From Bradyrhizobium sp. CB82 (GTDB lineage: Bacteria; Pseudomonadota; Alphaproteobacteria; Rhizobiales; Xanthobacteraceae), in NCBI RefSeq assembly GCF_029714405.1, contig NZ_CP121651.1:372001-436000 (forward strand): 64,000 bases of DNA, written 5' to 3'. The position numbers and the translations under genes were made by a program. The notes below the pieces were generated by a model. That model worked only from the letters and a program-made list of their open reading frames with translations, did not search any database and had not been told where the DNA came from. Below are positions 2,796 to 47,905 of the stretch, piece by piece. Position 1 is the first letter of the stretch; each line of letters begins with the position of its first letter.

Positions 2796-3053
2796 GTGGC
2801 AGCCCGTGGTGGCACAGTCTCCGCTTACGAGCGATAATCAAAGTCCAGTGCAAGTGTGATCTGCTCAAGCGGATGTTCGATACTCTCTCACTCATCGGCA
2901 TCTTGGCAGCGCGTGCGCCTTGTTATCGTCGCACAACGGCCACACGTTCAGCATTAGCTGATCGACATTCACAACCCCCTTTTGAGCGAGATCAAACGCG
3001 GCGAAACAACAAACCCGCCGCGCGGAGGTGTGAGAGGGCTGCGAGCGTCGATC
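2796..3053. other. intergenic, no gene seen
   Basis: About 260 bp between the BA14K-like remnant and the stop of the L,D-transpeptidase gene. Neither strand holds a frame with sensible codon use or a recognisable motif. Confidence 0.5.
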
Positions 3054-4550
3054 CTACCAGATCGAGAACGGACTCCTCATCGGCGAGCCCCAATAGAGCT
3101 GGCGATCGCGCGGACGTTCGTAGCCGTAATACGTGGGCGCCGGACGGCGCTTTCGGAACTTGATGCCGCCTTGCGGTTCGTCGCTCAGCACGATCACGAA
3201 GTCGGTGCCCTTGCCGGTTTCCGGGCTCAAGGCTTCATCGGTGGCGATCACGGACGATCCGGGCGTCATGCCTGCGATGCGATCGAGGGCCTCCTGCGGA
3301 ATGACGATCCGGTCGAGCGCGGCCCTGGCGCGGTCCGGCTCGGGCGGCGATTCAACATCGAGCGCGTTGCCCGGGGCCACCGGAGGACGGTGTTCGACTT
3401 CGGCGACTCGTGACCGTCCGCTCTCCAATGAGACGACATTCCATCGCGCGCCGTTCTCGCCGCCGGCGCGCTCGATTGCGGTGAAGACATGCGTGCCGAT
3501 CGGGCGGTCGGCATCGGTGACGGTGACGGGACTCTCGTAGACTGGTTCAAAGCCGCGCCGCACATAAAGCCGCTGGGTCTTGCGGCTGATTAGGACCGAG
3601 ATCGGCTCGAGCTCGCGGGCGGCCTGGCGCGCTGCCGCTGACGCCATGGCCCGCGCGGCCTGGGCGGCTTTGGCGGCCTCGCGTGCCGCCGCGAGCACAT
3701 CGGCCTTCTGTTGCAGCTCATCCCTGACGGCGGCCAGTTTCACGTCCAGCTGGACGATATCGGCAGCCACCTTCGCCCTGGCGTCCTCTAAATCCTGCTT
3801 GGCCTCGGCCGAGCTTGCGGAGCCGAGCGAAGCCTCGACGGCGGCCTGTCGCGCGACGGCCCGCGCCTTCAGCGTTTCCGCCGAACGCACCGGCACCATC
3901 GCCTGCATCGCCTCGCGGTAGGCCATTGCGACCGCGCCCCTCGCCTGCTCATCTCTCCTGGCCGCCTCTTTCGCTTCGGCGATACTGGCAGAGGCTGCGG
4001 CGCTGCTATCCGGCTTGCTCCGCAGCAGCAGCGGGTGAACGACCTCGACCGGCGCCACGTCGGTCGGCGCCACGATCACCCGCAAGCCCAGCTGCGTCGC
4101 GTCGAACAGGCGTTTGGCGAAATCGAACGGCATCCGGATGCAGCCATGCGACGCCGGATATCCCGGCAAGTGCCCGCCATGCAGCGCGATGCCGGACCAT
4201 GTGAGACGCTGCATGTGAGGCATCGAGGCGTCGTCGTAGAGGTTCGAATAGTGCTCCGCCTGCTTCTCGATGACGCTGAAGATTCCGGACGGCGTCTCGC
4301 GTCCCTTCTGGCCGCTCGACACCGGCGCCCGCAGGATCCACCCCTGCGCGTCATAAATGGTGATCTGCTGCCGCTGCAGCGACACGATGGCCAGGACCGG
4401 GTCGCCAGTTGGGCGCGAGGCAATGGACTCGACCGGACGGGCGCCGGCGGCGCCTCCCGCTGCGAACAGCAGGGCCAGCGCCGCAATGGCAAGACCTGCA
4501 GGCGACCGCCGATTCTGCTTCCGGCTCGCAAGCCCAAAGGTCATGCGCAT
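3054..4550 (-). CDS. L,D-transpeptidase (YkuD domain) family protein
   Basis: A probable periplasmic cell-wall cross-linking enzyme of 498 residues from the chosen start. An N-terminal signal peptide (about residues 10-38, hydrophobic core AIAALALLFA) leads to a YkuD domain with the catalytic signature H124...S-H135-G-C137-I-R, the Cys being the nucleophile. A long Ala/Glu/Lys coiled coil (about 190-330) separates this from a second stretch that resembles the start of a YkuD fold (ISRKTQRLYV...PIGTHVF) but lacks a Cys motif. Two upstream in-frame Met codons exist (to 4631); I prefer 4550 because it places the signal peptide properly. The M15-like gene lies 122 bp upstream on the same strand, so both may act in peptidoglycan remodelling. 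Confidence 0.85.
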   Translation of the reverse strand: MRMTFGLASRKQNRRSPAGLAIAALALLFAAGGAAGARPVESIASRPTGDPVLAIVSLQRQQITIYDAQGWILRAPVSSGQKGRETPSGIFSVIEKQAEHYSNLYDDASMPHMQRLTWSGIALHGGHLPGYPASHGCIRMPFDFAKRLFDATQLGLRVIVAPTDVAPVEVVHPLLLRSKPDSSAAASASIAEAKEAARRDEQARGAVAMAYREAMQAMVPVRSAETLKARAVARQAAVEASLGSASSAEAKQDLEDARAKVAADIVQLDVKLAAVRDELQQKADVLAAAREAAKAAQAARAMASAAARQAARELEPISVLISRKTQRLYVRRGFEPVYESPVTVTDADRPIGTHVFTAIERAGGENGARWNVVSLESGRSRVAEVEHRPPVAPGNALDVESPPEPDRARAALDRIVIPQEALDRIAGMTPGSSVIATDEALSPETGKGTDFVIVLSDEPQGGIKFRKRRPAPTYYGYERPRDRQLYWGSPMRSPFSIW

Positions 4551-4671
4551 CCCTGTGATCCGAGTGACGCCAGGGGAGGAGATTAGCTCCATGCCCGGTC
4601 TGGCCGCCTCGGAAATTATTCCCGGTTGCAAGCATCACCTCCGGCACAAAGCGGATATCGCGCATCGGGAG

Positions 4672-5838
4672 TCAGATCGTTCGCCCCTTCGCTGATTTCG
4701 CGGTCTTCGGCGGCTTCGCCCGGCTGCGATTATCGCGCACAGCGAGCCGATTGTGCTTCTTCACATCCGGTCCCGCCAGCCGCGTTTTGGCCCCGTGGTT
4801 GTGCGCAGCATATTCGTGGCCATCGATCGGCACCAGATGCGGCGGATCCCGATTGAGATAGGGTCGCCCGACGCCGAACTCCTTGCCGTGGGCATCGAGC
4901 CACTTCCAGAGTTTTTCCGAGGACGTCCATCGCTCGTCGCGTGTTTCGCCGGTGACGCTGACGACATCCGCCGCCAGCCCATGGCCATAGCCGCCGCGCA
5001 AGCTGCCGCCATGGAACGACCTGTTGCTGGCCGCCTTGAGGCCGCTGGCTATCGACTGGCGGTAGTCGTCGCGGAACGCGCTGGTGATGCCGGGCGACAG
5101 GCCGGCCTGCTCCGCGGCGTGAAGCGCATGAAAGAGCTTTAGCTTGAAGCTCCGATCCATGCCGCCGATCACGTAGTCCTGCATGGACATGCCGGCTCGC
5201 TCGGCCGCCTTCGGATCCTTCCAGGCGAAATCCTCATCGACGAGCCTGGTGAAGGTTTTCGAGACCGTCATCATCCTGCCCTTCCGTTTAACCGTCACCT
5301 TCTGCTGTTCCGGCACCTTGATGGTGTCCTCCTTCGGCGCCCGCTGATAGAGCGCCCACAGGAAGCGGTCGATGCAGACGTCGACGTTCCAGCATTCGTC
5401 AAGAATTTCGATGGAGCCGACAGTTGGCTTGATCTCACCCTTGCTTGCGTCGCCCGGCTCCGGTTCCGGCGTGCTGGCCGTCGACACTTCCACGGGCTGC
5501 GCTTGAGGCGGCAGCACCTCGGCCGGATTGGTCAGCGCGGTCTCGACAATCGCTTCCACCTCGGGCGAGGTTGTCGTGGTATCGCTGGCGGCCACCGTCT
5601 CCGATCTGCCTGCGGTTGCCTCCTCGGCGAAAGCGGCAGCCGCATGGCCGACGACGGTTGCCCGAAGTGCGCCGGGCGCGGCGTCGGCGACGACAACAGG
5701 TGCGGTGCGCTCGACGGCTGGCGCACCGCAAGTCTCGACTCTGGTCGAACCGAAAGCAGCAAGGCAGGCGACAATCCAGCTCGGGAGAACGACCGTCCGG
5801 CACAACCCCGCTGTCTTCATTCGCCGCGAGTTTTTCAT
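4672..5838 (-). CDS. exported M15-like (DD-carboxypeptidase fold) protein
   Basis: A 388-residue protein with an N-terminal hydrophobic segment (residues 15-30), a low-complexity Ala/Thr/Pro linker to about 145, then a conserved C-terminal domain. The domain shows SAFRDDYRQ near 253, the zinc-site-like pattern GYGHGLAADV (H286, D291) and DPPHL (H334), as in VanY/peptidase M15 and related hedgehog-fold enzymes. This suggests a D,D-peptidase or endopeptidase acting on peptidoglycan. It is followed on the same strand by the L,D-transpeptidase gene. A basic Lys-rich tail ends the protein. I am confident of the fold family but not of the exact bond cleaved. Confidence 0.75.
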   Translation of the reverse strand: MKNSRRMKTAGLCRTVVLPSWIVACLAAFGSTRVETCGAPAVERTAPVVVADAAPGALRATVVGHAAAAFAEEATAGRSETVAASDTTTTSPEVEAIVETALTNPAEVLPPQAQPVEVSTASTPEPEPGDASKGEIKPTVGSIEILDECWNVDVCIDRFLWALYQRAPKEDTIKVPEQQKVTVKRKGRMMTVSKTFTRLVDEDFAWKDPKAAERAGMSMQDYVIGGMDRSFKLKLFHALHAAEQAGLSPGITSAFRDDYRQSIASGLKAASNRSFHGGSLRGGYGHGLAADVVSVTGETRDERWTSSEKLWKWLDAHGKEFGVGRPYLNRDPPHLVPIDGHEYAAHNHGAKTRLAGPDVKKHNRLAVRDNRSRAKPPKTAKSAKGRTI

Positions 5839-6411
5839 TCCCAGCCTCCAAGGCTCCTGCGGAGCTAGCTTGCACAGCCAAGATGTGACGCTCGGGATTG
5901 TCGGATCAGGTTATGGACTCGCAATGGCCAAAAATGCTGATCATCCGTCTTTTCCGCGAGTGTTGCCTGAAGGCAACTGGCAACACATTGTTAACCATAC
6001 GCGGCGTCACCGCCGCGGGACCGGCTCTCGAACCGGTCGCACGCGCATCCGCATAGCCGTGGCGGCAAGCCAGAAAAACTCGCCAGCGGATTCCCCGTGG
6101 CCAGCAAACGCCTCTGGGGGCTGCGCCCAGAACAATTCTTCTTGTTTACCGAATCCATGGGTGTGAGAAAATCGTCGCCCTCCTCCGGTCGCCCGTGAGG
6201 CCCTGTGCGTCGTGGGTGTGGAAAAGCGAACCGCCAGCGCTGACGGCCCATGCGCGCCGGCTGAGGCGGCAGAACGGGGGCCTCATCAGCCCCCGTTCTC
6301 GCTCATACTTCTGGGTACACTCTTCCGTAATGGCTGTGGCGCGACCTTGTCGCCATATGGTGCGCCTAATCGAATTTGAGTTAGCGCGGGACCGAAGCCC
6401 CCCGCTTTTGC
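5839..6411. other. intergenic region upstream of the M15-like gene
   Basis: About 570 bp with no convincing gene. It must contain the promoter of the minus-strand cell-wall pair. There is a small GC hairpin near 6000-6017 (CGCGGCG/CGCCGCG) and a strong one at 6271-6299. Confidence 0.5.
6271..6299. terminator. strong GC hairpin, possible terminator
   Basis: An 11-bp perfect stem AGAACGGGGGC / GCCCCCGTTCT with a 7-nt loop. There is no T-run on either side, so it is not a classical intrinsic terminator. It sits beyond the stop (6412) of the minus-strand fragment and could end its transcript. Confidence 0.4.
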
Positions 6412-6660
6412 TTAACCCTCTATCGCCTTGTAGCCCGCAGCTTCCAGCCACGGCAGCCGATAAGGAGAGACAATGAAGGTCGTGCCGTTGTTGTCCTGCT
6501 TCCACCCAATCAGGAAGGACCGATCGCCCTCGCTGGGAAGGCCAGCAATATATGGACCCTGGCGGATATCACCCTCCCACCCCGCCTGTCCGGCTAGATT
6601 CTGTGCTCGCTCCTTTGCCCTTATCGGCTTCGGGATGTGTACGGCATCACGAAGTGGCGA
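6412..6660 (-). pseudogene. fragment of a conserved hypothetical protein
   Basis: An open minus-strand frame ending in TAA at 6412 encodes about 80 residues of convincing protein, including AQNLAGQAGWEGDIRQGPY, FLIGWKQDNNG and SPYRLPWLEAAGYKAIEG. No ATG or GTG start exists in this frame, and the reading becomes poor beyond 6660. It is therefore probably the C-terminal part of a small protein that lost its start. Function unknown. Confidence 0.5.
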
Positions 6661-6893
6661 CGTTGAACACCGGTCGATTATGGGGTGGAACCTTGCCGGT
6701 CCCGCTGCACGTCGGGCACGGCCGAAAGAGGATCTTCCGCGTCGGGTGCGGAGACGTCATCCGGGGCTCGTTGCCGGTGCCGAAGCAGCCTCGCAGTCTT
6801 TGACTTTAGCTCATCTTGATCTCCATCGATTCGAGGCGACTTGCCTTGCGACGGATTGATGCAAGGCAGCCCTCCCCCAGCAACGCACCACAC

Positions 6894-7103
6894 CTATTCC
6901 TGCGGCTCTTCCGGGGGCACAAGCTTGATGTCGACGCCAAGCGAATGCTGAGGAGGCCCGAGCTCCTTCAGCTTCCATTCGGTCAGCTTCATCTTGTTCT
7001 GAAATTCTCGACGCTCGGGCGAGCCCTCCGGATGAGCGAGGACCGCGTCGCGCCACGCCTGGATCTCGTTGATAAGGGCCGCCCGTTTCTCGTCGTCCGT
7101 CAT
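6894..7103 (-). CDS. small hypothetical protein
   Basis: 69 residues, charged and predicted mostly helical (MTDDEKRAALINEIQAWRD...), ending in an acidic Pro/Glu tail. Codon use matches real genes. No membrane segment and no known domain. It stands alone between two other small hypothetical genes. Confidence 0.55.
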   Translation of the reverse strand: MTDDEKRAALINEIQAWRDAVLAHPEGSPERREFQNKMKLTEWKLKELGPPQHSLGVDIKLVPPEEPQE

Positions 7104-7204
7104 GCCCGCATGATCACACGATTCGGGCCGGTCACCGTGAGACGGGAAATATACGGTACGACAGCCTTGACGAGTGACTCGCCGGGGGAGTCTTATCCGC
7201 GCCC

Positions 7205-7387
7205 ATGGGGCGGGATCAGAACATCCTCGACGATCTGAAGCGGTACGAACGGCTTTGCCTGGAGCTGGCCGACGACAGCACCATGCCCGAGGAGCGCGCG
7301 GGCCTGCTGGTCATGGCGAACAACTATCCGGCCGAGATTACCGACCGAAAATTTAATGACAAAACGCTCACAGAAAAAACGACTTGA
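7205..7387 (+). CDS. small hypothetical protein
   Basis: 60 residues, acidic and helical (MGRDQNILDDLKRYERLCLE...). It resembles short soluble proteins common in Bradyrhizobium genomes, but I cannot name a function. The last 12 codons (after ANNYPAEITDRK) are AT-rich and abut the tRNA fragment at 7416, so the natural C terminus may have been replaced when foreign DNA joined here. Confidence 0.55.
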   Translation: MGRDQNILDDLKRYERLCLELADDSTMPEERAGLLVMANNYPAEITDRKFNDKTLTEKTT

Positions 7388-7415
7388 GATAGTGCGGATA
7401 AGTAATTGTAATTGT

Positions 7416-7459
7416 TGGAGGCCACGACCAGAATTGAACTGGTGTAAACGGTTTTGCAG
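7416..7459 (-). pseudogene. 3' part of a tRNA-Cys (GCA) gene, probable att scar
   Basis: On the minus strand the 44 nt start CTGCAAA (an anticodon loop with GCA), continue through a variable region, form a perfect T arm (ACCAG / CTGGT around the loop TTCAATT) and end in an acceptor strand with the encoded CCA. The 5' side of the anticodon stem, the D arm and the 5' acceptor strand are missing; the bases before the loop do not pair. A tRNA remnant cut exactly at the anticodon loop is what integration by a tyrosine recombinase leaves at the distal end of an island. Confidence 0.8.
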
Positions 7460-7528
7460 TTCTCGAACCTCCGTACCGGCCAGTACCTTGCTGCTTCAGG
7501 TAATCACAAAGAGCAGTCAAATCTTAGC

Positions 7529-7560
7529 GGGGAGGCAACCGTTCGTCCCTCCCCGTTTTG
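7529..7560 (+). terminator. hairpin followed by a short T-run
   Basis: Stem GGGGAGG (7529-7535) with CCTCCCC (7548-7554), then GTTTTG. It lies shortly beyond the tRNA fragment. Weak evidence for a terminator. Confidence 0.35.
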
Positions 7561-7822
7561 GCCCGTGCCACCTGGTTGGGTAGCAATTTGGGTAGCAAGT
7601 TGCGCATCCCCGCCACCGGCGAACGGCGCTTTTCCACCCGGCGGTTGCAGCCTCGACTTCCGAATAGGGTCGCCGGCGCTTCCACTATAAAAAGGGACTC
7701 AGTGCCCCGCCGATGAGAGCCTCCGCTAGAAGAAGTGCAATGCCGTAAGGTGGCCTGCACCCCGTTGAAGGCTTTTCGTAGTTCGCTTCGATGGTGAACG
7801 CGAGGTCAGCCGGTTTTCGGGC

Positions 7823-8452
7823 AGCGTCACTTCCGATCCGGATAGCCGTTCGATGGCAACCAGTGGCCGCGGATCCGGCGTTGTCGGCTACAATGTCCAA
7901 GTCGCCGTCGACACCGACCATCACCTGATCATCGCGCATGAGGTGACGAACAGCGGCTCAGATCGGGCACAACTTGCCAATATGGCCAGGCAGGCGAAGG
8001 CTGTTCTGAACACTGAGACGCTCGAGGCCGTTGCCGATCGCGGCTACTTCAGCAGCCCGGCGATCCTCGCCTGCCACGAGGCCGGCATCACGGTAACTCT
8101 GCCCAAGCCGATGACTTCAGGCGCCAAGTCGGACGGACGCTTCGATAAGCAGGACTTTGTCTATTTACCGGAGGAAGACGCCTATCGTTGTCCGGCCGGA
8201 CGGATCACGCGATGGGAGCACGAGGATCTGCTCGACGCAGTGCAGCAGCGGCTCGATGCGAACCCGCTCGCTATGCGCCGTCGTCGCGAGACTGTCGAGC
8301 ATCCGTTCGGCACGATGAAGGCACGCATGGGAGCGACGCACTTCCTGACCAAAACTCTCCCAAAGGTAGCCGCCGAGGCCCTCTCGGTTCTGGCCTATAA
8401 TCTGACCCGAGCAATGAATATCCTCGGGATCAGGCCGCTGATCGCGGCCTGA
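7823..8452 (+). pseudogene. IS1182-type transposase remnant, 5'-truncated with internal deletion
   Basis: The frame aligns with the C-terminal half of the complete IS1182 transposase at 27802-29241 (shared SRSMATSGRGSGVVGYNVQV, SGSDRAQLANM, RRRRETVEHPFGT, FLTKxLPKVA). About 230 N-terminal residues are missing. An in-frame deletion of roughly 45 residues joins YRCPAG directly to RITRWEHED, removing the cysteine-rich segment present in the intact relative. It is too incomplete to be active. The DNA just beyond it resembles the right end of the intact element, which supports descent from a full copy. Confidence 0.85.
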
Positions 8453-8480
8453 GGCCGGCCCAGTTTTGGCTTCAAGACTG

Positions 8481-8502
8481 ACGGCCCTGTAAGGCCGTTT
8501 TT
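8481..8502 (+). terminator. intrinsic terminator after the IS1182 remnant
   Basis: Stem CGGCC / GGCCG with a 6-nt loop followed by TTTTT, 30 bp past the stop of the transposase remnant. Confidence 0.55.
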
Positions 8503-8798
8503 ACACGGCCAAGACCCGTTGCGGACGTTGGCGGTGTTGGGCCAGCGACTCGCTTGCGGTTTGAAGATCAGTGTTCTGTCAGCCCTACCTGTCGGAGAAT
8601 GTCGCTATAGCGGGCACGATCCGCCGCGCGAACCAATGTGACGCGCTCCACCCCTGGCGTTAACCATACGGCGGTTTCTCTTACCGGGCGGCGGACGCTT
8701 AATGCTCGTTTAACATTTTCGCACAAAAGATAACGATCAGCGCGGAGATCAATACGCAGAGAGAATACCGGCAGAAATTCATCCTCTAGGGTGATTGC

Positions 8799-9677
8799 TT
8801 GAGAACACCTCTCATCATCGCGCTGGCCGCGACCTTGGTCGGCTGTAGTCGTCAACCACCGCCCCAAGCGGCCGTGGAATCGTGCGCTGACAAACATGGC
8901 TTCGCCTGCTCCAATAGGACGGCTGCCGATCAGCCGATTAAACTCGCGTCATCCAAAACCAATCGCCGAACAAAATCGGCCATGTTTACCATTGCGGCAA
9001 CCTCCGAAAAGCAGCCGGCTCATCGTACCCGTGACAAGGGGCCGGCACATCTCGCTACCAAGAAGGCGAAACCTACTGTCACCACGGCAAAGGCAGAGCC
9101 TCCCGCAACCGGCGTCCCGCTCCCGCCTCCTTCATTGAAGACGGAACTCGAGAGCAAAAGCAGCGCCCCCGCCGCAGGTCTCGGTACGACAGGGTTAAAC
9201 GTCGCGGATCCGCGGTCCACCGTGGGGCCCGCTCCGAATTCCAATAGCAGGACGATACAGGAGCAGGTGGCGGCCGCGACGGCGGTTGCAGAGCGAATGA
9301 CGGTCACGGCCGCAACAGCGGCACGTGACGGGGCCGACCCAATTGCAGGCGCGTCGCCTGACACAGAGCCCCTGGTTGCCGTTGTAATAGTTCGACCGGA
9401 GATCCCGTCGGTATTCGCCCTTACCGACGTTGCTATCGATGACAGGTATCTCGCATCGAGGGTTGATATCATGATCGCGATCGTGGCAGCAGGAGGTCCG
9501 GTGGTCCATCTCAGCGCAGGGCACACGGCGGCGATCGATCGGCTGCTCAATGGTGAGGTGCCGGCTGCCGTCGCGGCCCTGGTGTCCGTGGACGCAGCAG
9601 AGGCGTTTCCTGAAATAAAAGGCTTCAAGATTTTTCACCTCCCGCTCTCGTCGCGTTATTTGAAGCCGCGGCCTTAG
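8799..9677 (+). CDS. lipoprotein of unknown function
   Basis: 292 residues from a TTG start. The N terminus is a lipoprotein signal (MRTPLIIALAATLVGC), with the lipobox Cys at residue 16. A long Ser/Thr/Lys/Pro-rich linker (about 20-190) leads to a compact C-terminal region (about 195-285: DVAIDDRYLASRVDIMIAI, INRLLNGEV-like and FPEIKGFKIFHLP), which recalls the later lobe of TAXI/NMT1-type periplasmic binding proteins, though I am unsure. It is probably anchored to the inner face of the outer membrane. The TTG has only a weak ribosome site (AGGGTGATT); no ATG is available before residue 60. Confidence 0.65.
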   Translation: MRTPLIIALAATLVGCSRQPPPQAAVESCADKHGFACSNRTAADQPIKLASSKTNRRTKSAMFTIAATSEKQPAHRTRDKGPAHLATKKAKPTVTTAKAEPPATGVPLPPPSLKTELESKSSAPAAGLGTTGLNVADPRSTVGPAPNSNSRTIQEQVAAATAVAERMTVTAATAARDGADPIAGASPDTEPLVAVVIVRPEIPSVFALTDVAIDDRYLASRVDIMIAIVAAGGPVVHLSAGHTAAIDRLLNGEVPAAVAALVSVDAAEAFPEIKGFKIFHLPLSSRYLKPRP

Positions 9678-10149
9678 CATACCGGTTGCGCAACGAGGCA
9701 CGTTGCCGCTCGAGCAAAAGCCGGAGGGATTTATGAGCCTAATTTCCGACCATGGTGAGTCGGAGTTATTCGCTGTGATGGGCATTTCTAATTTTCGCGG
9801 CCTGCGTGGCCGGCGCGCTTCTCCTTGGCGTTTCGCCGATAGGGCCGACAACGGCCGCATTAGTTGCTGCGAAGCCTCAGCCGAAGCTGAAATTGCAGGT
9901 TCCGGCAAGATCGTTTTTGACTGTGCACAGGTGGGGGCGTTCAATTCAGCTTGGTTTTGAATCGCCCATGCGTTCGATGCAATGTCCTGATCGAAACCGG
10001 TTGGTGCAGCCGCGCAAATCCGATGAATGAACAAACTGCTAGAGGTATCGCACGACTGGCTTGCAATTGACGTGCTGGTGATCGCCGTATCAATGGCACG
10101 CATCCTACTTGAGATCTGGGTCTTGAACTCGCCAATGGAGGATACAGTC
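9678..10149. other. intergenic, no supported gene
   Basis: About 470 bp between the lipoprotein gene and a small peptide gene. Short frames exist on both strands, but none has a good ribosome site or recognisable motif. Confidence 0.4.
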
Positions 10150-10254
10150 ATGCTTATGTTTTACCTGCCGATGATAATTTTCGGAGCGATGCTCGACGTA
10201 ATTGCGAAACAGAATGCAGCGACCACCCTCGTGACCCGCCAAGTTTTTGATTAG
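10150..10254 (+). CDS. 34-residue hydrophobic peptide
   Basis: The ATG at 10150 is preceded at 7 nt by GGAGGA, a near-ideal ribosome site, which is the main reason to choose this start rather than the upstream in-frame ATG at 10027. The product starts MLMFYLPMIIFGAMLDVI and is a single membrane helix with a short polar tail. It is followed 62 bp later by another small membrane protein gene on the same strand. Function unknown. Confidence 0.5.
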   Translation: MLMFYLPMIIFGAMLDVIAKQNAATTLVTRQVFD

Positions 10255-10316
10255 ACCCCCGAGGCCGCTAGTAGCTTCAGCTCGTTGTTCTCGAAACAAC
10301 TAGTTCGAGGCCTAGC

Positions 10317-10475
10317 ATGTTCGAAATGATCTCAATCGCCGCTGATGGCGCTGGGATGTGCCTGTTCCTGGCAATTGCAGTCTATCAATCGACGAGGCGC
10401 CGCAGCTCGCCCAAGCAATCGATCGGGCCAGTCATCAAGGAGATCAATGCCACTCAAAAGAAAGCTCCAGCGTGA
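10317..10475 (+). CDS. 52-residue single-span membrane protein
   Basis: ATG at 10317 behind TTCGAGG. The protein has one hydrophobic segment (about residues 10-23, GAGMCLFLAIAVY), then a basic stretch (STRRRSS) and a polar tail, consistent with a small N-out single-pass protein. Codon use is good throughout. Together with the peptide at 10150 it may form a small transcription unit. Function unknown. Confidence 0.5.
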   Translation: MFEMISIAADGAGMCLFLAIAVYQSTRRRSSPKQSIGPVIKEINATQKKAPA

Positions 10476-10608
10476 TGCCGGAGCGTTCTTCGTTGTTGAG
10501 CATTTCAACCCTCCTTATAGTGGTTTTGCTGCTGGTACATCCGCAGTCAGAAAATTCGTGTGTGACTTAGGCGGCCTCGCGTCGGTTTTGGTACGCATCG
10601 AAGCGTGG

Positions 10609-11033
10609 TTAGATCCCGCGCTCCGAATCGTCTTCGCTCGCAATGGGCCACGAGCCACCGCCGGGGCCATGCTTCAGCACGCGAACGACGTCGGTCATGG
10701 CATCTTTCTTCAGGTACGGCGCGTCGTGAACGAGCTCGTAGACTTCCGCTCCAATTCGTCAAACTGCGATTGATAGAGCGCAGTGTTGGGCACCGGATCG
10801 AACGGACAGTTTAAGTCGCGCGGCTTCGGCAGATTGGCCGCCAGCGACTTTGGCGGAGCGCCTGGAAGAATGCCAAGATCCCTACAGATTTCCTGCCGTG
10901 CGAGTTTGACGACGTTCTCCGCAGTATGCAACGCCATCTCGGCGTCGCGCGTATCATCGAGGGCCGAGCCGAAGCCTCCGAAGCTCGCGATCGCCCTCGG
11001 TGTTTGCCATGACTCACTGTGCGCCCAGAACTA
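10609..11033 (-). pseudogene. frameshifted and 5'-truncated conserved hypothetical gene
   Basis: From about 11033 downward one minus-strand frame reads as solid protein (FWAHSESWQTPRAIASFGG..., DDTRDAEMALHTAENVV, LPKPRDLNCPFDPVPNTALY). Near 10750 the good reading jumps frame (EVYELVHDAPYLKKDAMTDV...) and ends at a TAA at 10609. A stop codon (TAG) lies directly upstream of the first good codon, with no start. It is thus a gene with a lost 5' end and a single frameshift. I do not recognise the family. Confidence 0.65.
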
Positions 11034-11316
11034 CTAAAGTTCCGACCACACAAGACCGCTGGTGCGATTTGCCGGACCGAGGACATTTATGTTCGGGATA
11101 GTGGAAAACCGCTCCAGGGAATTCACGGCCGCTGGCGGAGCCTCGGGAAATAAATTCAGACAGTATCTGGACCGGAGGTCGCGATGAACGTGTACGGCAG
11201 AAAGCTGCCTGCTCGCATTCGCCATCCTGATTGTGCTGGCCGCCATCGGGCCGACCGCAGCGGTCTTCTGGTATCGGCCGGCCCAAGCACGCCAAACAGG
11301 CGCGCCCATCACGGGC
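11034..11316. other. intergenic with a degraded signal-peptide-like frame
   Basis: On the plus strand CTGCTCGCATTCGCCATCC and what follows translate to a convincing hydrophobic segment (LLAFAILIVLAAIGPTAAVFW), but the frame opens right after a TGA. An ATG behind GGAGG at 11184 is one frame off. I read this as a small exported-protein gene damaged by a frameshift. Confidence 0.35.
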
Positions 11317-11535
11317 TCAAGCCCGACTAAAGCCGTCCACCGCCAGCGTGATCTTGTGCGCGGTATGGTCAATGGTGATGCAGTTTATCTTTGTCAGCGC
11401 GCCGCTGGCCCTGAAGAACAGTTTGTGGTGGAGCTTTAGCTCGGCGTCGATTTGGTGGTGCCCTTTGATAAGCGTGCCGTCGAGGTTGGTCTGGCCCACT
11501 TCATCGCCGGCTTCGTTCACGATTGTTCGGATCAT
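11317..11535 (-). CDS. small hypothetical protein
   Basis: 72 residues (MIRTIVNEAGDEVGQ...) with strikingly GC3-rich codons over its whole length, which favours it over the overlapping plus-strand frame. A GGAGGCGGAG ribosome-like site lies 23 nt upstream but is better spaced for an ATG in another frame, so the natural start is uncertain or a small deletion has occurred. No known domain. Confidence 0.45.
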   Translation of the reverse strand: MIRTIVNEAGDEVGQTNLDGTLIKGHHQIDAELKLHHKLFFRASGALTKINCITIDHTAHKITLAVDGFSRA

Positions 11536-11691
11536 TTTCGTCTTTGATGGGTTTCATCTCCGCCTCCTACAACGTTGCGCCGGTCCCGGCGTTCGAACCA
11601 GACGTACCAAACACGATACGATCGGCGGGCGCATCAAGCTCTATGTGCAGGAGAACTTCCCGGAGGCTTAGAGGGCCTGCACCGCTCCGGG

Positions 11692-13120
11692 GGGGATGTC
11701 CCGATCGCTGTTGAACTACGTCGGGCCGACGTTGCCGGAATGAATGTTACGCGGCCCTCGTGACGTGGGCAACGGGGTTGATCGTCATGCGATTGTGGCG
11801 AGCTTGAAGGGCCGCACGCAAAACCGACAATTGCTTATGCGCCTTCAATCGTCGGAAGCCCTTGTTGGCCTCGATCATGCCGGCCGCGACCCATCGCAAG
11901 GCCATGCCGGCATCCCGCCAGCGTTTGACGTTGCGCGTGACGCGGCGAATGGTGCCCATCATGTTCTCGGCGATGTTGGTACAAGCGAGCGATCGACGAA
12001 GCTCCTTCGGCAGCTTCAACCGGACGACAGTCAGGATTTCGTCGAGGCCTTCGAGGATGCTGGCCGCTACGCCGGGCCATTGCTGGTCGAGTCGACGCGC
12101 GAGATTGCGGATCAATTTTTCAGCCTTGTCGGCGTCATCGAGCTCCCAGGCCTGGCGCAGCACCCGACGGGTGGCCGCATGATGCTCTTTCGGCAGGCGT
12201 TCCATGATGTTGCGCGCCTTGTGGATCTGGCAGCGCTGGATCGCAGCGGCCGAACCGAAGGTGCGGCGGATCGCCTTCGACAACGCCTTCGCGCCGTCGG
12301 CGATGAACAGTCTTGGCACCGTCGGGTCGAGCCCGCGCGAGACCAGGTTGTCCAGCAGGGCCTGAACCGTTGCGGCGTTCTCGGTCGCCCCTTCCACCAG
12401 CGCCAGCGGATGCTTGTTGCCTTCGCCGTCAACCCCGATCGCGGCCACCAGCACGAGATCGTCGCCGAGATGCAGCCCGTCGATTTGGACCACCAGAAGG
12501 TCGAGCGCGGACAGATCGGCAGCCATGAAGTCGGCCAGCCGCGCCGCCGACAGCGCTACGAACCTCCGCGAGGCCGCCGACTTCGAAACCCCCGATCCGG
12601 GCGGTGCCGGCACGTCACCCTCGGGCAGCCGGACAGCGCGGCCGAACCGGCGCGTCGACACATTGATCAGCATCAGGTTCATCGCCCAGCGACCGAGCCA
12701 GTCCTCCTCCGCCGCCGTTTCCCAGCTCGGGATCGTGACCTCGCGGCCGTCCACGCCCCGGACCCGCGGGCGCTCGACCTCGATCTTGCCGCCGTGGAAG
12801 CCGATCCGTCCCCGCGTTCGGCCCCAACGGTGCGCCCGCCGCGCCGCGTCGCGACCGTGGCGCGGCCCGCAGGCCGCCGTGACATCCGCCTCCATCATCG
12901 TGCCGAGCGCCTCGATCCCTGCCGCAAGGCAGAACCGATCGAAGCTCGCCCGCACTTCTGCAAACGCTTCGTCCACAGCCCCGGTCGCCGGCCAACCAGC
13001 CGGTGTGATATCTCTCGTCATGGCGTTGCTCTCCTTTGTGGAATCAGCACCCCGAGCCTACCGGCTCAAGGTGGGCAACGCCGACCTCTTCAGAAATTCA
13101 ACAGAACCCGGGACATCCCG
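11692..13120 (-). mobile_element. IS256-family element, copy 2 (1429 bp)
   Basis: Same length and ends as copy 1. The 8-bp duplication GCTCCGGG is at 11684-11691 and 13121-13128. The outermost base of the right end is G instead of C, so the terminal base pair of the inverted repeat mismatches. Confidence 0.95.
11747..13021 (-). CDS. IS256-family transposase, copy 2
   Basis: 424 residues with catalytic D181, D242 and E352 intact. It differs from copies 1 and 4 by Val instead of Ile at residue 365. It is apparently functional, and its target duplication is perfect, indicating recent insertion. Confidence 0.96.
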   Translation of the reverse strand: MTRDITPAGWPATGAVDEAFAEVRASFDRFCLAAGIEALGTMMEADVTAACGPRHGRDAARRAHRWGRTRGRIGFHGGKIEVERPRVRGVDGREVTIPSWETAAEEDWLGRWAMNLMLINVSTRRFGRAVRLPEGDVPAPPGSGVSKSAASRRFVALSAARLADFMAADLSALDLLVVQIDGLHLGDDLVLVAAIGVDGEGNKHPLALVEGATENAATVQALLDNLVSRGLDPTVPRLFIADGAKALSKAIRRTFGSAAAIQRCQIHKARNIMERLPKEHHAATRRVLRQAWELDDADKAEKLIRNLARRLDQQWPGVAASILEGLDEILTVVRLKLPKELRRSLACTNIAENMMGTIRRVTRNVKRWRDAGMALRWVAAGMIEANKGFRRLKAHKQLSVLRAALQARHNRMTINPVAHVTRAA

Positions 13121-13332
13121 GCTCCGGGCTCGCCTGACATGGCGCGCTGTGGACAACCGAACCGGTCTATCGTGATCCATTCGCGGTCGAATGTCGGCTC
13201 ATACAGAGCGAAGCCGTCAGGACTGGACGTGACGACCAGCGTCTCCGGATCGAGTTTCTGCAGCTCATCTATTAGGTCTTTGGCCTAGCGCCATTGCGGC
13301 AAATCCGAGTTACGCCGATTGCTCAATCGCAT

Positions 13333-25835: not shown

Positions 25836-27236
25836 GGGGATGTCCCGATCGCTGTTGAACTAAGTCGGGCCGACGTTGCCGGAATGAATGTTACGCGGCC
25901 CTCGTGACGTGGGCAACGGGGTTGATCGTCATGCGATTGTGGCGAGCTTGAAGGGCCGCACGCAAAACCGACAATTGCTTATGCGCCTTCAATCGTCGGA
26001 AGCCCTTGTTGGCCTCGATCATGCCGGCCGCGACCCATCGCAAGGCCATACCGGCATCCCGCCAGCGTTTGACGTTGCGCGTGACGCGGCGAATGGTGCC
26101 CATCATGTTCTCGGCGATGTTGGTACAAGCGAGCGATCGACGAAGCTCCTTCGGCAGCTTCAACCGGACGACAGTCAGGATTTCGTCGAGGCCTTCGAGG
26201 ATGCTGGCCGCTACGCCGGGCCATTGCTGGTCGAGTCGACGCGCGAGATTGCGGATCAATTTTTCAGCCTTGTCGGCGTCATCGAGCTCCCAGGCCTGGC
26301 GCAGCACCCGACGGGTGGCCGCATGATGCTCTTTCGGCAGGCGTTCCATGATGTTGCGCGCCTTGTGGATCTGGCAGCGCTGGATCGCAGCGGCCGAACC
26401 GAAGGTGCGGCGGATCGCCTTCGACAACGCCTTCGCGCCGTCGGCGATGAACAGTCTTGGCACCGTCGGGTCGAGCCCGCGCGAGACCAGGTTGTCCAGC
26501 AGGGCCTGAACCGTTGCGGCGTTCTCGGTCGCCCCTTCCACCAGCGCCAGCGGATGCTTGTTGCCTTCGCCGTCAACCCCGATCGCGGCCACCAGCACGA
26601 GATCGTCGCCGAGATGCAGCCCGTCGATTTGGACCACCAGAAGGTCGAGCGCGGACAGATCGGCAGCCATGAAGTCGGCCAGCCGCGCCGCCGACAGCGC
26701 GACGAACCTCCGCGAGGCCGCCGACTTCGAAACCCCCGATCCGGGCGGTGCCGGCACGTCACCCTCGGGCAGCCGGACAGCGCGGCCGAACCGGCGCGTC
26801 GACACATTGATCAGCATCAGGTTCATCGCCCAGCGACCGAGCCAATCCTCCTGCGCCGCCGTTTCCCAGCTCGGGATCGTGACCTCGCGGCCGTCCACGC
26901 CCCGGACCCGCGGGCGCTCGACCTCGATCTTGCCGCCGTGGAAGCCGATCCGGCCCCGCGTTCGGCCCCAACGGTGCGCCTGCCGCCCCGCATCGCGACC
27001 GTGGCGCGGCCCGCAGGCCGCCGTGACATCCGCCTCCATCATCGTGCCGAGCGCCTCGATCCCTGCCGCAAGGCAGAACCGATCGAAGCTCGCCCGCACT
27101 TCTGCAAACGCTTCGTCCACAGCCCCGGTCGCCGGCCAACCAGCCGGTGTGATATCTCTCGTCATGGCGTTGCTCTCCTTTGTGGAATCAGCACCCCGAG
27201 CCTACCGGCTCAAGGTGGGCAACGCCGACCTCTTCA
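25836..27236 (-). mobile_element. IS256-family element, copy 3, right end lost
   Basis: The left end GGGGATGTCCCG is intact at 25836. On the right, homology to the other copies stops at 27236 (GACCTCTTCA), 28 bp short of the expected end, and no 8-bp duplication is present. The last 28 bp, including the inverted repeat, were deleted or replaced, so this copy should not move on its own although its transposase gene is complete. Confidence 0.93.
25891..27165 (-). CDS. IS256-family transposase, copy 3
   Basis: 424 residues, catalytic D181, D242 and E352 present. It shares with copy 5 the substitutions A60G, R62Q and E105Q relative to copies 1, 2 and 4, defining a second sublineage. It could supply transposase to other copies although its own element lacks a right end. 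Confidence 0.95.
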   Translation of the reverse strand: MTRDITPAGWPATGAVDEAFAEVRASFDRFCLAAGIEALGTMMEADVTAACGPRHGRDAGRQAHRWGRTRGRIGFHGGKIEVERPRVRGVDGREVTIPSWETAAQEDWLGRWAMNLMLINVSTRRFGRAVRLPEGDVPAPPGSGVSKSAASRRFVALSAARLADFMAADLSALDLLVVQIDGLHLGDDLVLVAAIGVDGEGNKHPLALVEGATENAATVQALLDNLVSRGLDPTVPRLFIADGAKALSKAIRRTFGSAAAIQRCQIHKARNIMERLPKEHHAATRRVLRQAWELDDADKAEKLIRNLARRLDQQWPGVAASILEGLDEILTVVRLKLPKELRRSLACTNIAENMMGTIRRVTRNVKRWRDAGMALRWVAAGMIEANKGFRRLKAHKQLSVLRAALQARHNRMTINPVAHVTRAA

Positions 27237-27355
27237 CAAAATGCGAAGAACTCAACGTGAGCAAATCCAGTCTGCTATGCTCCGTTGAACGGACCTGAAT
27301 GGGGCGCTACGTGGGCTTGTAGGTAATTCGGCTCTGGAAAGGCGTGCGAATATCG

Positions 27356-33490: not shown

Positions 33491-33563
33491 CGGGCGAGCG
33501 GCCAAACTATCGCGCGCATCTACATCACCGAGCGTCAACCCTATCCGGTATGCGACCTTCAGC

Positions 33564-34992
33564 GGGGATGTCCCGGGTTCTGTTGAATTTCTGAAGAGGT
33601 CGGCGTTGCCCACCTTGAGCCGGTAGGCTCGGGGTGCTGATTCCACAAAGGAGAGCAACGCCATGACGAGAGATATCACACCGGCTGGTTGGCCGGCGAC
33701 CGGGGCTGTGGACGAAGCGTTTGCAGAAGTGCGGGCGAGCTTCGATCGGTTCTGCCTTGCGGCAGGGATCGAGGCGCTCGGCACGATGATGGAGGCGGAT
33801 GTCACGGCGGCCTGCGGGCCGCGCCACGGTCGCGACGCGGCGCGGCGGGCGCACCGTTGGGGCCGAACGCGGGGACGGATCGGCTTCCACGGCGGCAAGA
33901 TCGAGGTCGAGCGCCCGCGGGTCCGGGGCGTGGACGGCCGCGAGGTCACGATCCCGAGCTGGGAAACGGCGGCGGAGGAGGACTGGCTCGGTCGCTGGGC
34001 GATGAACCTGATGCTGATCAATGTGTCGACGCGCCGGTTCGGCCGCGCTGTCCGGCTGCCCGAGGGTGACGTGCCGGCACCGCCCGGATCGGGGGTTTCG
34101 AAGTCGGCGGCCTCGCGGAGGTTCGTAGCGCTGTCGGCGGCGCGGCTGGCCGACTTCATGGCTGCCGATCTGTCCGCGCTCGACCTTCTGGTGGTCCAAA
34201 TCGACGGGCTGCATCTCGGCGACGATCTCGTGCTGGTGGCCGCGATCGGGGTTGACGGCGAAGGCAACAAGCATCCGCTGGCGCTGGTGGAAGGGGCGAC
34301 CGAGAACGCCGCAACGGTTCAGGCCCTGCTGGACAACCTGGTCTCGCGCGGGCTCGACCCGACGGTGCCAAGACTGTTCATCGCCGACGGCGCGAAGGCG
34401 TTGTCGAAGGCGATCCGCCGCACCTTCGGTTCGGCCGCTGCGATCCAGCGCTGCCAGATCCACAAGGCGCGCAACATCATGGAACGCCTGCCGAAAGAGC
34501 ATCATGCGGCCACCCGTCGGGTGCTGCGCCAGGCCTGGGAGCTCGATGACGCCGACAAGGCTGAAAAATTGATCCGCAATCTCGCGCGTCGACTCGACCA
34601 GCAATGGCCCGGCGTAGCGGCCAGCATCCTCGAAGGCCTCGACGAAATCCTGACTGTCGTCCGGTTGAAGCTGCCGAAGGAGCTTCGTCGATCGCTCGCT
34701 TGTACCAACATCGCCGAGAACATGATGGGCACCATTCGCCGCGTCACGCGCAACATCAAACGCTGGCGGGATGCCGGCATGGCCTTGCGATGGGTCGCGG
34801 CCGGCATGATCGAGGCCAACAAGGGCTTCCGACGATTGAAGGCGCATAAGCAATTGTCGGTTTTGCGTGCGGCCCTTCAAGCTCGCCACAATCGCATGAC
34901 GATCAACCCCGTTGCCCACGTCACGAGGGCCGCGTAACATTCATTCCGGCAACGTCGGCCCGACGTAGTTCAACAGCGATCGGGACATCCCC
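33564..34992 (+). mobile_element. IS256-family element, copy 4 (1429 bp)
   Basis: Inverted relative to copies 1-3. The perfect 8-bp duplication CCTTCAGC lies at 33556-33563 and 34993-35000. Both ends are intact. Confidence 0.96.
33663..34937 (+). CDS. IS256-family transposase, copy 4
   Basis: 424 residues, identical in protein sequence to copy 1, with D181, D242 and E352 present. The ATG follows GGAGAGCAACGCC. Predicted active. Confidence 0.96.
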   Translation: MTRDITPAGWPATGAVDEAFAEVRASFDRFCLAAGIEALGTMMEADVTAACGPRHGRDAARRAHRWGRTRGRIGFHGGKIEVERPRVRGVDGREVTIPSWETAAEEDWLGRWAMNLMLINVSTRRFGRAVRLPEGDVPAPPGSGVSKSAASRRFVALSAARLADFMAADLSALDLLVVQIDGLHLGDDLVLVAAIGVDGEGNKHPLALVEGATENAATVQALLDNLVSRGLDPTVPRLFIADGAKALSKAIRRTFGSAAAIQRCQIHKARNIMERLPKEHHAATRRVLRQAWELDDADKAEKLIRNLARRLDQQWPGVAASILEGLDEILTVVRLKLPKELRRSLACTNIAENMMGTIRRVTRNIKRWRDAGMALRWVAAGMIEANKGFRRLKAHKQLSVLRAALQARHNRMTINPVAHVTRAA

Positions 34993-40375: not shown

Positions 40376-40515
40376 TCCGTCACCTCACAGCTGGGGCAAG
40401 GGCGCAATCGAAGAACGCGCCCAATCCGGGAATCAAAAATTGAAATGCCAATTCCATACGACAGTCTGCGCTAACCAAAGTGTAAGGAAAAGGCCCATGC
40501 GTTGCGCCAAAGCGG

Positions 40516-41944
40516 GGGGATGTCCCGGGTTCTGTTGAATTTCTGAAGATGTCGGCGTTGCCCACCTTGAGCCGGTAGGCTCGGGGTGCTGATTCCACAA
40601 AGGAGAGCAACGCCATGACGAGAGATATCACACCGGCTGGTTCGCCGGCGACCGGGGCTGTGGACGAAGCGTTTGCAGAAGTGCGGGCGAGCTTCGATCG
40701 GTTCTGCCTTGCGGCAGGGATCGAGGCGCTCGGCACGATGATGGAGGCGGATGTCACGGCGGCCTGCGGGCCGCGCCACGGTCGCGATGCGGGGCGGCAG
40801 GCGCACCGTTGGGGCCGAACGCGGGGCCGGATCGGCTTCCACGGCGGCAAGATCGAGGTCGAGCGCCCGCGGGTCCGGGGCGTGGACGGCCGCGAGGTCA
40901 CGATCCCGAGCTGGGAAACGGCGGCGCAGGAGGATTGGCTCGGTCGCTGGGCGATGAACCTGATGCTGATCAATGTGTCGACGCGCCGGTTCGGCCGCGC
41001 TGTCCGGCTGCCCGAGGGTGACGTGCCGGCACCGCCCGGATCGGGGGTTTCGAAGTCGGCGGCCTCGCGGAGGTTCGTCGCGCTGTCGGCGGCGCGGCTG
41101 GCCGACTTCATGGCTGCCGATCTGTCCGCGCTCGACCTTCTGGTGGTCCAAATCGACGGGCTGCATCTCGGCGACGATCTCGTGCTGGTGGCCGCGATCG
41201 GGGTTGACGGCGAAGGCAACAAGCATCCGCTGGCGCTGGTGGAAGGGGCGACCGAGAACGCCGCAACGGTTCAGGCCCTGCTGGACAACCTGGTCTCGCG
41301 CGGGCTCGACCCGACGGTGCCAAGACTGTTCATCGCCGACGGCGCGAAGGCGTTGTCGAAGGCGATCCGCCGCACCTTCGGTTCGGCCGCTGCGATCCAG
41401 CGCTGCCAGATCCACAAGGCGCGCAACATCATGGAACGCCTGCCGAAAGAGCATCATGCGGCCACCCGTCGGGTGCTGCGCCAGGCCTGGGAGCTCGATG
41501 ACGCCGACAAGGCTGAAAAATTGATCCGCAATCTCGCGCGTCGACTCGACCAGCAATGGCCCGGCGTAGCGGCCAGCATCCTTGAAGGCCTCGATGAAAT
41601 CCTGATTGTCGTCCGGCTGAAGCTGCCGAAGGAGCTTCGTCGATCGCTCGCCTGTACCAACATCGCCGAGAACATGATGGGCACCATTCGCCGCGTCGCT
41701 CGCAACGTCAAACGCTGGCGGGATGCTGGTATGGCCTTGCGCTGGGTCGCGGCCGGCATGATCGAGGCCAACAAGGGCTTCCGACGATTGAAGGCGTATA
41801 AGCAATTGTCGGTTCTGCGTGCGGCCCTTCAAGCTCACCACGATCGCATGACGATCAAGCCCGTTGCCCACGTCACGAGGGCCGCGTAACATTCATTCCG
41901 GCAACGTCGGCCCGGCGTAGTTCAACAGCGATCGGGACATCCCC
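40516..41944 (+). mobile_element. IS256-family element, copy 5 (1429 bp)
   Basis: Same orientation as copy 4. The perfect duplication CAAAGCGG lies at 40508-40515 and 41945-41952. Both ends are intact. It is the most diverged of the five copies. Confidence 0.96.
40615..41889 (+). CDS. IS256-family transposase, copy 5
   Basis: 424 residues, catalytic D181, D242 and E352 present. It shares A60G, R62Q and E105Q with copy 3. It additionally differs at the N terminus (W10S) and in the last quarter (EILIVV, RVARNVK, KAYKQ, AHHDRMTIK), where silent changes also cluster. This mosaic pattern suggests gene conversion between sublineages. Predicted active. Confidence 0.95.
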   Translation: MTRDITPAGSPATGAVDEAFAEVRASFDRFCLAAGIEALGTMMEADVTAACGPRHGRDAGRQAHRWGRTRGRIGFHGGKIEVERPRVRGVDGREVTIPSWETAAQEDWLGRWAMNLMLINVSTRRFGRAVRLPEGDVPAPPGSGVSKSAASRRFVALSAARLADFMAADLSALDLLVVQIDGLHLGDDLVLVAAIGVDGEGNKHPLALVEGATENAATVQALLDNLVSRGLDPTVPRLFIADGAKALSKAIRRTFGSAAAIQRCQIHKARNIMERLPKEHHAATRRVLRQAWELDDADKAEKLIRNLARRLDQQWPGVAASILEGLDEILIVVRLKLPKELRRSLACTNIAENMMGTIRRVARNVKRWRDAGMALRWVAAGMIEANKGFRRLKAYKQLSVLRAALQAHHDRMTIKPVAHVTRAA

Positions 41945-46301: not shown

Positions 46302-47831
46302 TTGATAATCAGTGAAATGCAGCACAAGCTCGCGACATGGGCCGAGAGCGACCCGAACCGAAGGTTCGATCGCCTCCTTCGGCTGATTGCCAACCGGGAA
46401 TGGCTTGCCGAGGCCGCTCGGATTGTTCTGGCGTCAAGTGGCGCACGAACACCGGGCATCGACGGAATAGATAAGCAACGACTGCAGGTCAGACTGGATC
46501 AGCATCTGGATGACCTGCGGAAAAGCCTGCTGGACGAGAGTTATCGCCCCCAGCCGGTGAAGCGAATCTATATCCCGAAAACCAACGGCAAGCTACGCCC
46601 ACTGGGTATTCCGACTCTGACGGATCGCATCGTCCAACGAGCCATGCTCATGGCCATGGAGCCAATCTGGGAAAGCGACTTCCATCGCCTATCCTATGGC
46701 TTCCGGCCTGAACGGAGCGTGCACCATGCCGTCCGCACCGTGAAGATACAGCTTCAGGATGGAGCCGATACGACGAGGGGCCGCTGGATCATCGAAGGTG
46801 ATCTGGCAAGCTACTTCGACACGGTCCATCACCGGCTGCTTATCAGATGTGTGCGGCGACGAGTGCAGGATGGGCGATTTGTTGATCTTCTCTGGCGGTT
46901 CCTGAAGGCAGGTCACATTGACCGTGACCTGTTTAAAGCCTCCAGCGAGGGTGTTCCGCAAGGTGGCGTGCTGTCACCGCTCTTGTCCAACATCATGCTC
47001 CATGAGTTCGATGCGTGGCTGGAGGCGAAATACCTGAGCGACAAGGCCCGCAAGGACCGCTGGGCATGGAACTTCGGCATCAAGCTGGGCCGCCCTATTA
47101 CGGTTCGAGAGAACCGGCAATGGAAGCCGGCGGTTGCTTACTGCCGATACGCTGACGACTTTGTCGTGATCGTAAAAGGGACCAAAGCTCAAGCAGAGGA
47201 AATCCGCGAGGAATGCCGCGCCTTTCTGGAAGGCAAGCTGAAATTGATGCTGAATATGGAGAAAACCCATATCACCCACGTCAATGACGGCTTCGTCTTT
47301 CTGGGGCACAGGATCATTCGCAAACGAGGGTCGCACGGGCGCATGTCCGTCGTCACAACGATACCCAAGGAAAAGGCGAAGGGGTTTGTTCGCAGGCTCA
47401 CTGAAACCCTCTCCGGCAATCATAGTGTCAGCACGGTCGACATGATCGCCGGCCTGAACCGCCAACTGGCGGGATGGGCAGCGTTCTACAAGTTCACCGA
47501 CTTCACCGCGTACGTATTCCGGCGCATCGACCATGTCGTGTTCTGGAAAATGGCGCATTGGCTGGGGCACAAATACCGATCTCGCATCAAACCTTTGATG
47601 CGGAAATGGTACCGAACCCCGGAACCGGGCAAGGCGAAAACCTGGCTCGTGTTTGGTCGGAATGAACGCGGCGGGACCGACGGAAAAGCACTTTACCGGC
47701 TTGTCTCAAGCCCGAAGGCGCAGTTCCGGTGGCGCAATCCGGAGGAAAATCCATACATCCTCCGAAAGGAAGCCCGCAGCACTGTCACCTCGCACTATCA
47801 TGATGTTGCTATGGCCATGGGCCAAGCTTGA
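46302..47831 (+). CDS. group II intron reverse transcriptase/maturase (intron 1)
   Basis: 509 residues from a TTG start with GAGGTGAAG 5 nt upstream; ATG 46317 is the alternative. RT motifs are present: PGIDGIDKQRL, RPLGIPTLTDRIVQRAML, SYGFRPERSVHHAV, EGVPQGGVLSPLLSNIML, and the catalytic YADDFVVIVKG. The maturase (X) region follows (LNRQLAGWAAFYKF). No HNH endonuclease motif is visible at the C terminus, so mobility would rely on nicked or single-stranded targets. The ORF sits in domain IV, ending just before domain V. Confidence 0.94.
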   Translation: MIISEMQHKLATWAESDPNRRFDRLLRLIANREWLAEAARIVLASSGARTPGIDGIDKQRLQVRLDQHLDDLRKSLLDESYRPQPVKRIYIPKTNGKLRPLGIPTLTDRIVQRAMLMAMEPIWESDFHRLSYGFRPERSVHHAVRTVKIQLQDGADTTRGRWIIEGDLASYFDTVHHRLLIRCVRRRVQDGRFVDLLWRFLKAGHIDRDLFKASSEGVPQGGVLSPLLSNIMLHEFDAWLEAKYLSDKARKDRWAWNFGIKLGRPITVRENRQWKPAVAYCRYADDFVVIVKGTKAQAEEIREECRAFLEGKLKLMLNMEKTHITHVNDGFVFLGHRIIRKRGSHGRMSVVTTIPKEKAKGFVRRLTETLSGNHSVSTVDMIAGLNRQLAGWAAFYKFTDFTAYVFRRIDHVVFWKMAHWLGHKYRSRIKPLMRKWYRTPEPGKAKTWLVFGRNERGGTDGKALYRLVSSPKAQFRWRNPEENPYILRKEARSTVTSHYHDVAMAMGQA

Positions 47832-47836
47832 ACAGA

Positions 47837-47905
47837 GAGCCGTATGCGCTGAAAGGTGCACGTACGGTTCGGGGAGGAGAAGCGCGCTCGCGCTTCTTAC
47901 TCCAC
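47837..47905 (+). ncRNA. group II intron 1 domains V and VI
   Basis: Domain V (47837-47870) pairs GAGCCGTATGCG with CGTACGGTTC around GAAAGGTGCA. Domain VI (about 47872-47905) is a GC-rich hairpin GAGAAGCGCGC/GCGCTTCTT with the presumed branch-point A, 7 nt before the 3' splice site. Confidence 0.8.

Follow-up and report, generated by a model that had tools for sequence, protein, structure and literature searches.

A tRNA-Cys fragment on a putative Bradyrhizobium plasmid is probably the orphan attR of a former tRNA-Cys island

How does part of a tRNA-Cys gene come to stand on a replicon in which no tRNA gene is found, and what is it there? The genome of Bradyrhizobium sp. CB82 comprises 10.14 Mb in two contigs, C1 and C2, and the window, as the 64-kb stretch of DNA that was analysed is called here, covers C2:372001-436000. 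C2 is 900,293 bp long and carries a RepC gene, because of which it is taken for a plasmid of the repABC type. All 51 tRNA matches in the genome lie on C1 and none on C2 (150 of the 168 candidates were scored), and of the five NifH-family matches all are likewise on C1 and none on C2. The 44-nt site in the window is very probably an orphan attR of a former tRNA-Cys island.

As an earlier note on this DNA had described it, the tRNA-Cys piece starts at the anticodon loop, keeps a perfect T arm and ends in CCA; this is confirmed, with the addition of the strand, which had not been given before (Table 1). Its 5' end, at 7459, is the first base of the anticodon loop, and the perfect T stem and the CCA can be read from the sequence. 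All 44 nt are present letter for letter in each of five tRNA-Cys genes of named records that were compared in full. Exact copies of a 36-nt part of the fragment occur in 30 stretches from the species-genome collection, of which 21 have Bradyrhizobium in the title, and in all 30 an intact tRNA-Cys(gca) called by ARAGORN ends at the match. An exact identity of this length to tRNA-Cys is far beyond chance. The 5' half of the tRNA is absent: before CTGC the window has ..CGAGAA, where the intact gene has ..AGCGGT. No tRNA is called by ARAGORN anywhere in the window, and an intact tRNA that the program overlooked is ruled out by the missing 5' half. At gathering scores Rfam shows no tRNA in the window, and in 7200-7700 it shows none up to an E value of 1. 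The Rfam match H19_2 was set aside as chance (16.8 bits against a gathering score of 50), and RNA folding of the fragment together with its upstream bases showed nothing notable (z -0.54).

Table 1. Features at and around the tRNA-Cys fragment, in window positions
Feature	Positions	Strand	Basis or remark
60-codon ORF	7205..7387	plus	DNA 7140-7347 similar to loci elsewhere in the genus
About 20 nt like the downstream flank of the intact tRNA-Cys in G230 and G039	7396..7415	minus	Presumed chromosomal side of the attR
Probable attR core, tRNA-Cys(GCA) 3' part from the anticodon loop to CCA, 44 nt	7416..7459	minus	Identity to tRNA-Cys genes and the same boundary in 10 other genomes
Probable element body remnant (right end), 373 bp	7460..7832		Genus matches to query 7462-7860 start only at 7833
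Putative arm-type repeat nearer the core, TTGGGTAGCAAT	7576..7587	plus	Minus-strand GCTACC starts 129 nt before AAAACCG of the core
Putative second arm-type repeat, TTGGGTAGCAAG	7588..7599	plus	Minus-strand GCTACC starts 141 nt before AAAACCG of the core
DDE transposase, truncated (DDE_Tnp_1; ORF 7853-8452)	7833..8452	plus	Bounds the element remnant

The query 7340-7700 was matched at E <= 1e-4 by 250 of the 265 genomes of the genus, own genome included (two candidates per genome were scored), and in the matches listed, the own one excepted, the similarity covers the tRNA piece and no more than some 17-33 flanking bases per side. Seventeen genomes, again including the own one, have two matches each, two being the most that were scored per genome. 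The stretches of ten of the other sixteen were fetched, and the loci of an eleventh, G156, were also at hand; G122, G174, G247 and G264 stood outside the survey, and G062 was examined for attL only. The stretch fetched from G063 held the intact gene alone. A tRNA-Cys 3' fragment without the 5' half was found in ten genomes: G163, G192, G168, G065, G156, G115, G158, G161, G230 and G039. An intact tRNA-Cys stands 1.2-6.7 kb from the fragment in seven of these (G192, G168, G065, G115, G158, G230 and G039), while in G161 the upstream copy is likewise without a proper 5' half and G156 has its two copies on separate contigs. Pieces of integrase adjoin the tRNA-Cys in G158, G065 and G156. In G115 the 6.7-kb insert between tRNA-Cys and fragment (L076:5834-12502) seems by eye to code for membrane-protease-like proteins of the SPFH/HflK type, and no integrase motif was found in it.

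The boundary reads GAACTGC in the window and in G192, G161, G156, G115, G230 and G039, and in the remaining genomes it is a close variant (GAGCTGC in G163, GAACCGC in G168, GAATTGC in G065 and GAACTGT in G158), so that identity with the tRNA begins in the anticodon loop each time. The suggestion in the earlier note of an attachment-site scar with its crossover in the anticodon loop is supported by this boundary, shared with ten other genomes, and integration in the loop with displacement of the 3' part of the gene is strongly supported by this family of sites.

A whole island of this kind can be seen in G163. Its fragment is at C1:5559458-5559504 of that genome and a pattern match places an intact tRNA-Cys with left arms at C1:5602401-5602486, about 43 kb away on the same strand of a 9.18-Mb contig, that is, in direct orientation. 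Between the ends, adjoining the tRNA and pointing at it (convergent), is a 385-aa integrase (L099:15245-16399) with matches to Phage_integrase PF00589 (1.6e-21), SAM_3 (5.8e-10) and, just below the cut-off, Arm-DNA-bind_4 (0.00015). Relatives of this integrase were found in 2152 phage records, all below 60% identity, and in 436 plasmid records, 32 of them at 60-80%. Ten island proteins were scanned, and among them are the integrase, a carbamoyltransferase, a periplasmic binding protein, two cyclase-domain proteins, two GDSL-type lipases, a citrate transporter, a transposase and an AAA_25 ATPase; no conjugation protein is among the ten. The G163 island and the window site are alike in target tRNA, boundary, arm motif and spacing, and they differ in that G163 has both ends and the integrase, whereas neither partner was found for the window site.

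The arm motif belongs to a 12-nt direct repeat that stands beside the core in the window. On the plus strand the motif is TGGGTAGCAA; read along the minus strand, on which the tRNA piece lies, it is TTGCTACCCA, and GCTACC is the reverse complement of the motif in the earlier note. Taken singly, TGGGTAGCAA is unremarkable: the window has 4 matches with at most one mismatch where 1.97 are expected, and 12 of 100 shuffles reach 4. What matters is the spacing of the pair and its distance to the core rather than the number of motifs, and no other GCTACC pair with a spacing of 11-12 nt occurs in the window. The rate at which GCTACC starts in a given 6-nt interval is 0.0011 in 19 fetched loci, some of the sites being among these loci, and the motif was picked after the sites were seen. 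Against the window's offsets of -129 and -141 from AAAACCG, the attR-side offsets are -128/-140 in G163, -126 in G192, -129 in each of G168, G065 and G115, and -118/-129 in G156, so that 6 of the 10 relatives have GCTACC 118-129 nt from the core. The motif is elsewhere in G158 (-55/-66) and G161 (-56), and there is no exact GCTACC in G230 and G039, where the alignment shows a degenerate form at the expected place. Since the same motif and spacing recur beside attR elsewhere, including in a whole island with an intact integrase, the TTGCTACC repeats are likely arm-type integrase sites, putative ones that are recognised by their geometry. The earlier note's proposal of arm sites gains from this, with the correction that the second TGGGTAGCAA starts at 7589 and not at 7591.

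On the other side of the core, the 20 nt that resemble the downstream flank in G230 and G039 have a local score of 13, which 0 of 300 shuffles reach, and the next best of 51 distinct flanks scores 8; the shuffle test is uncorrected for the 51 comparisons, and the match is only 20 nt long and to G230 and G039 only. As the flank in those two genomes follows an intact tRNA, the stretch could instead be an element end. Farther left, the DNA as far as 7347 is part of a small gene family with members at different loci in 17 of 264 other genomes, as scored with two candidates per genome; in 2 of these 17 another stretch, 6961-7049, was the only match or an additional one. Because 7140-7347 resembles loci elsewhere in the genus, there is probably a junction somewhere from about 7348 to 7396. 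In the C1 locus and in L077, L079 and L083 the tRNA-Cys is followed downstream by a gene that was found neither in the window nor in the 20 kb on either side of it.

Could the core be the attP of the plasmid, or of an element in the plasmid, which carries half a tRNA-Cys and can integrate at chromosomal tRNA-Cys genes? A core with arm repeats on one side would be expected of an attP too, and the flank similar to G230 and G039 stands where the left end of the element would be. An attP should have arm repeats on both sides, and here the left arms are missing. Eight attL-side copies were examined, and GCTACC is at +99 to +112 from AAAACCG in G158, G161, G065, G192 and G168, with an additional one at +79 in G168; repeats of this type are absent beside the window core. 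The comparison carries the caveat that three of the eight, G115, G230 and G039, are likewise without the exact motif on that strand, G230 having an opposite-strand form at +88. With no close relative of the integrase found in the genome as well, an attP is quite improbable.

The attL side was also searched by sequence pattern in 265 genomes. The arm-bearing attL pattern was found in 10 and the attR pattern in 3, the own genome included, and the reversed-pattern controls for both gave 0; both patterns were composed from sites already seen. A full-length integrase frame stands beside the arm-bearing tRNA-Cys in one of the 10 attL genomes, G163, as judged by a motif that can miss some, and no integrase near the tRNA was recognised by the motif in the attL loci or stretches of G008, G018, G062, G232, G192 and G065. 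Few integrases being recognised, most attL sites are either eroded themselves or carry something that the motif misses.

On the element side, nothing in 264 other genomes matches 7462-7832 at E <= 1e-5 (two candidates per genome were scored), and the 5 of these that match the query 7462-7860 at that threshold all do so from 7833, the start of the transposase fragment. A plasmid search with 7150-7760 gave no match in 72,556 records, a set from which records of the own genome or near relatives may be left out, and a search with 3000-11700 gave one match of 211 bases. Two copies of an IS256-like element flank the locus at about 1.1-2.6 and 11.7-13.1 kb, and their plasmid relatives are annotated as IS256 family.

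Other mobile elements are spread over the window. A 424-aa ORF lies opposite a longer ORF in five places (1195-2595, 11744-13288, 25888-27288, 33525-34940 and 40471-41892), and for 1195-2595 and 11744-13288 the matching plasmid records carry the annotation IS256 family transposase. At 46302-47905 and 54837-56611 are two group II introns that have reverse transcriptase ORFs and are matched by Rfam. At 56772-58901 a tyrosine recombinase gene adjoins an IS91-type (Y2) transposase, and the genome holds three matches of nearly equal score and one weaker match with the same frame length.

With many transposase genes and two group II introns in the window, the tRNA fragment might have been copied to the plasmid by transposon capture or retrotransposition, that is, without an integrase, in which case the repeats would be coincidental. 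This is very improbable, given a boundary at the anticodon loop that is common to 10 genomes, and repeats at 129/141 here against 128/140 in the complete island.

The earlier note had expected the window to hold one end of an existing island with an intact tRNA-Cys of the same genome at the other end. One tRNA-Cys was found in the genome, at C1:4781902-4781975 (L063:9903-9976), and neither an attL nor a tRNA gene was found on C2. The proposed check for an identical 44-nt 3' end turned out against the expectation: 4 of 44 positions differ, namely two T-stem base pairs, each changed on both sides, a kind of difference that the note itself had named as refuting, and the downstream flank is unlike that of the window (score 4, attained by every shuffle). 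The own tRNA-Cys in its present form was accordingly rejected as the source of the fragment on these differences. A search of 257 genomes found the own 44-mer with the start of its flank in one, the own genome, although an own-type form with a different flank would escape such a search. Two named relatives, L025 and L026, have a flank that is nearly that of the own genome, yet their tRNA is in the form of the fragment, so the fragment need not stem from a distant species; by the same sequences, the own tRNA-Cys gene may be the changed one.

The note's second check, for an integrase beside the own tRNA-Cys, fared no better. The genome has 42 integrase-domain matches, of which a single one adjoins this gene, a C-terminal remnant of 72 aa on the 5' side; there is none closely 3' of the gene. 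The remnant lies on the same strand as the gene, just 5' of it, with two GGGTGCCAATT repeats (L063:9632-9976, C1:4781631-4781975), and it seems to be an eroded integrase on an unusual side. The best match in the own genome to the G163 integrase has 36% identity over 170 aa (E 6.6e-8), and no close relative was found. That the site is one end of an intact island of its own genome is extremely improbable: one tRNA-Cys and 42 integrase-domain matches are indeed present, but the gene is on the other contig, with those differences, another flank and no integrase-domain match closely after it.

The reading as an orphan attR accommodates these results as follows. An island with a tyrosine integrase would have entered a tRNA-Cys gene of Bradyrhizobium through a crossover in the anticodon loop. 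The tRNA would have been rebuilt at attL by the island's own copy and the displaced 44-nt 3' part left at the far end as the attR, between the island's right end with its arm-type sites and the downstream flank of tRNA-Cys. A piece with this attR would later have reached C2, where transposable elements and deletion may have taken away all of the island DNA but about 373 bp, an erosion suggested by the IS256-family-like copies and the DDE transposase around the site. Since the own tRNA-Cys differs, has another flank and has no close integrase, the island behind the scar would have sat in another copy of tRNA-Cys, in another strain or as an ancestral allele.

The window shows a 3' tRNA part displaced from the crossover site onward, and it has element-side arm-type repeats at the distance seen in the complete island. 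For the other end, a complete tRNA of the same kind on the same replicon and in direct orientation was not found, nor was an integrase gene inside an island next to the tRNA; for want of such an integrase, the site is filed as an attR relic and not as an island. Against an orphan attR speaks that its defining pair of ends is not seen here, with no attL or tRNA gene found on C2 and no close integrase found in the genome. Also counting against it are the 4 of 10 relatives without the exact arm motif where it would be expected, the single full-length integrase recognised among the 10 attL genomes, the want of genus matches to 7462-7832 and the shortness of the flank match.

Being without a partner integrase or attL, the site is now probably inert and most likely has no function. 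It is unlikely, though it keeps the crossover core and the right arms, that the half tRNA-Cys on the plasmid acts as a second docking site for tRNA-Cys islands; if it did, such islands could land on or recombine with a large plasmid and in this way pass from one replicon or strain to another. As a scar, it would testify to exchange between large plasmids and tRNA islands of the chromosome, a traffic that in Bradyrhizobium reshuffles symbiosis elements according to the parts of a published study at hand (PMC9239051). Sites in tRNA-Cys with conserved arm geometry could be used to find more of the kind.

The kind of scar is ordinary and its place, a plasmid, is unusual. In the available portion of the Islander database paper, anticodon-centred attachment sites are a standard class, class A, and there too the far end of an island formed by a tyrosine integrase is marked by a 3' tRNA fragment that begins at the anticodon loop (PMC4383910). 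Islander, as that portion describes it, looks within one replicon for both a tRNA gene and its fragments, whereas C2 has yielded no tRNA gene and has lost the island; scars on replicons without tRNA genes would escape such searches (PMC4383910). The islands of B. japonicum USDA6 resemble the window site in their duplicated 3' tRNA parts, which are 39-53 bp in most rows listed, several of them with an integrase, and serial insertions at one tRNA are described in the excerpts of that study; no tRNA-Cys site is among the rows listed of its Table 5 (PMC3927601). A literature search, within the partial texts that it returned, found no report of tRNA-Cys islands in Bradyrhizobium; one Bradyrhizobium paper names tRNA-Cys a single time, in a table of genes. 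The published precedent, as given in the retrieved sections, comes from Bradyrhizobium strain 187, whose Sym plasmid bears the att scar of a tRNA-Val symICE; there too a plasmid of the genus keeps a single att from a tRNA-targeting element. The two differ in the target, tRNA-Val there and tRNA-Cys here, and in that the NifH-family matches of the present genome are not on the replicon that carries the scar (PMC9239051).
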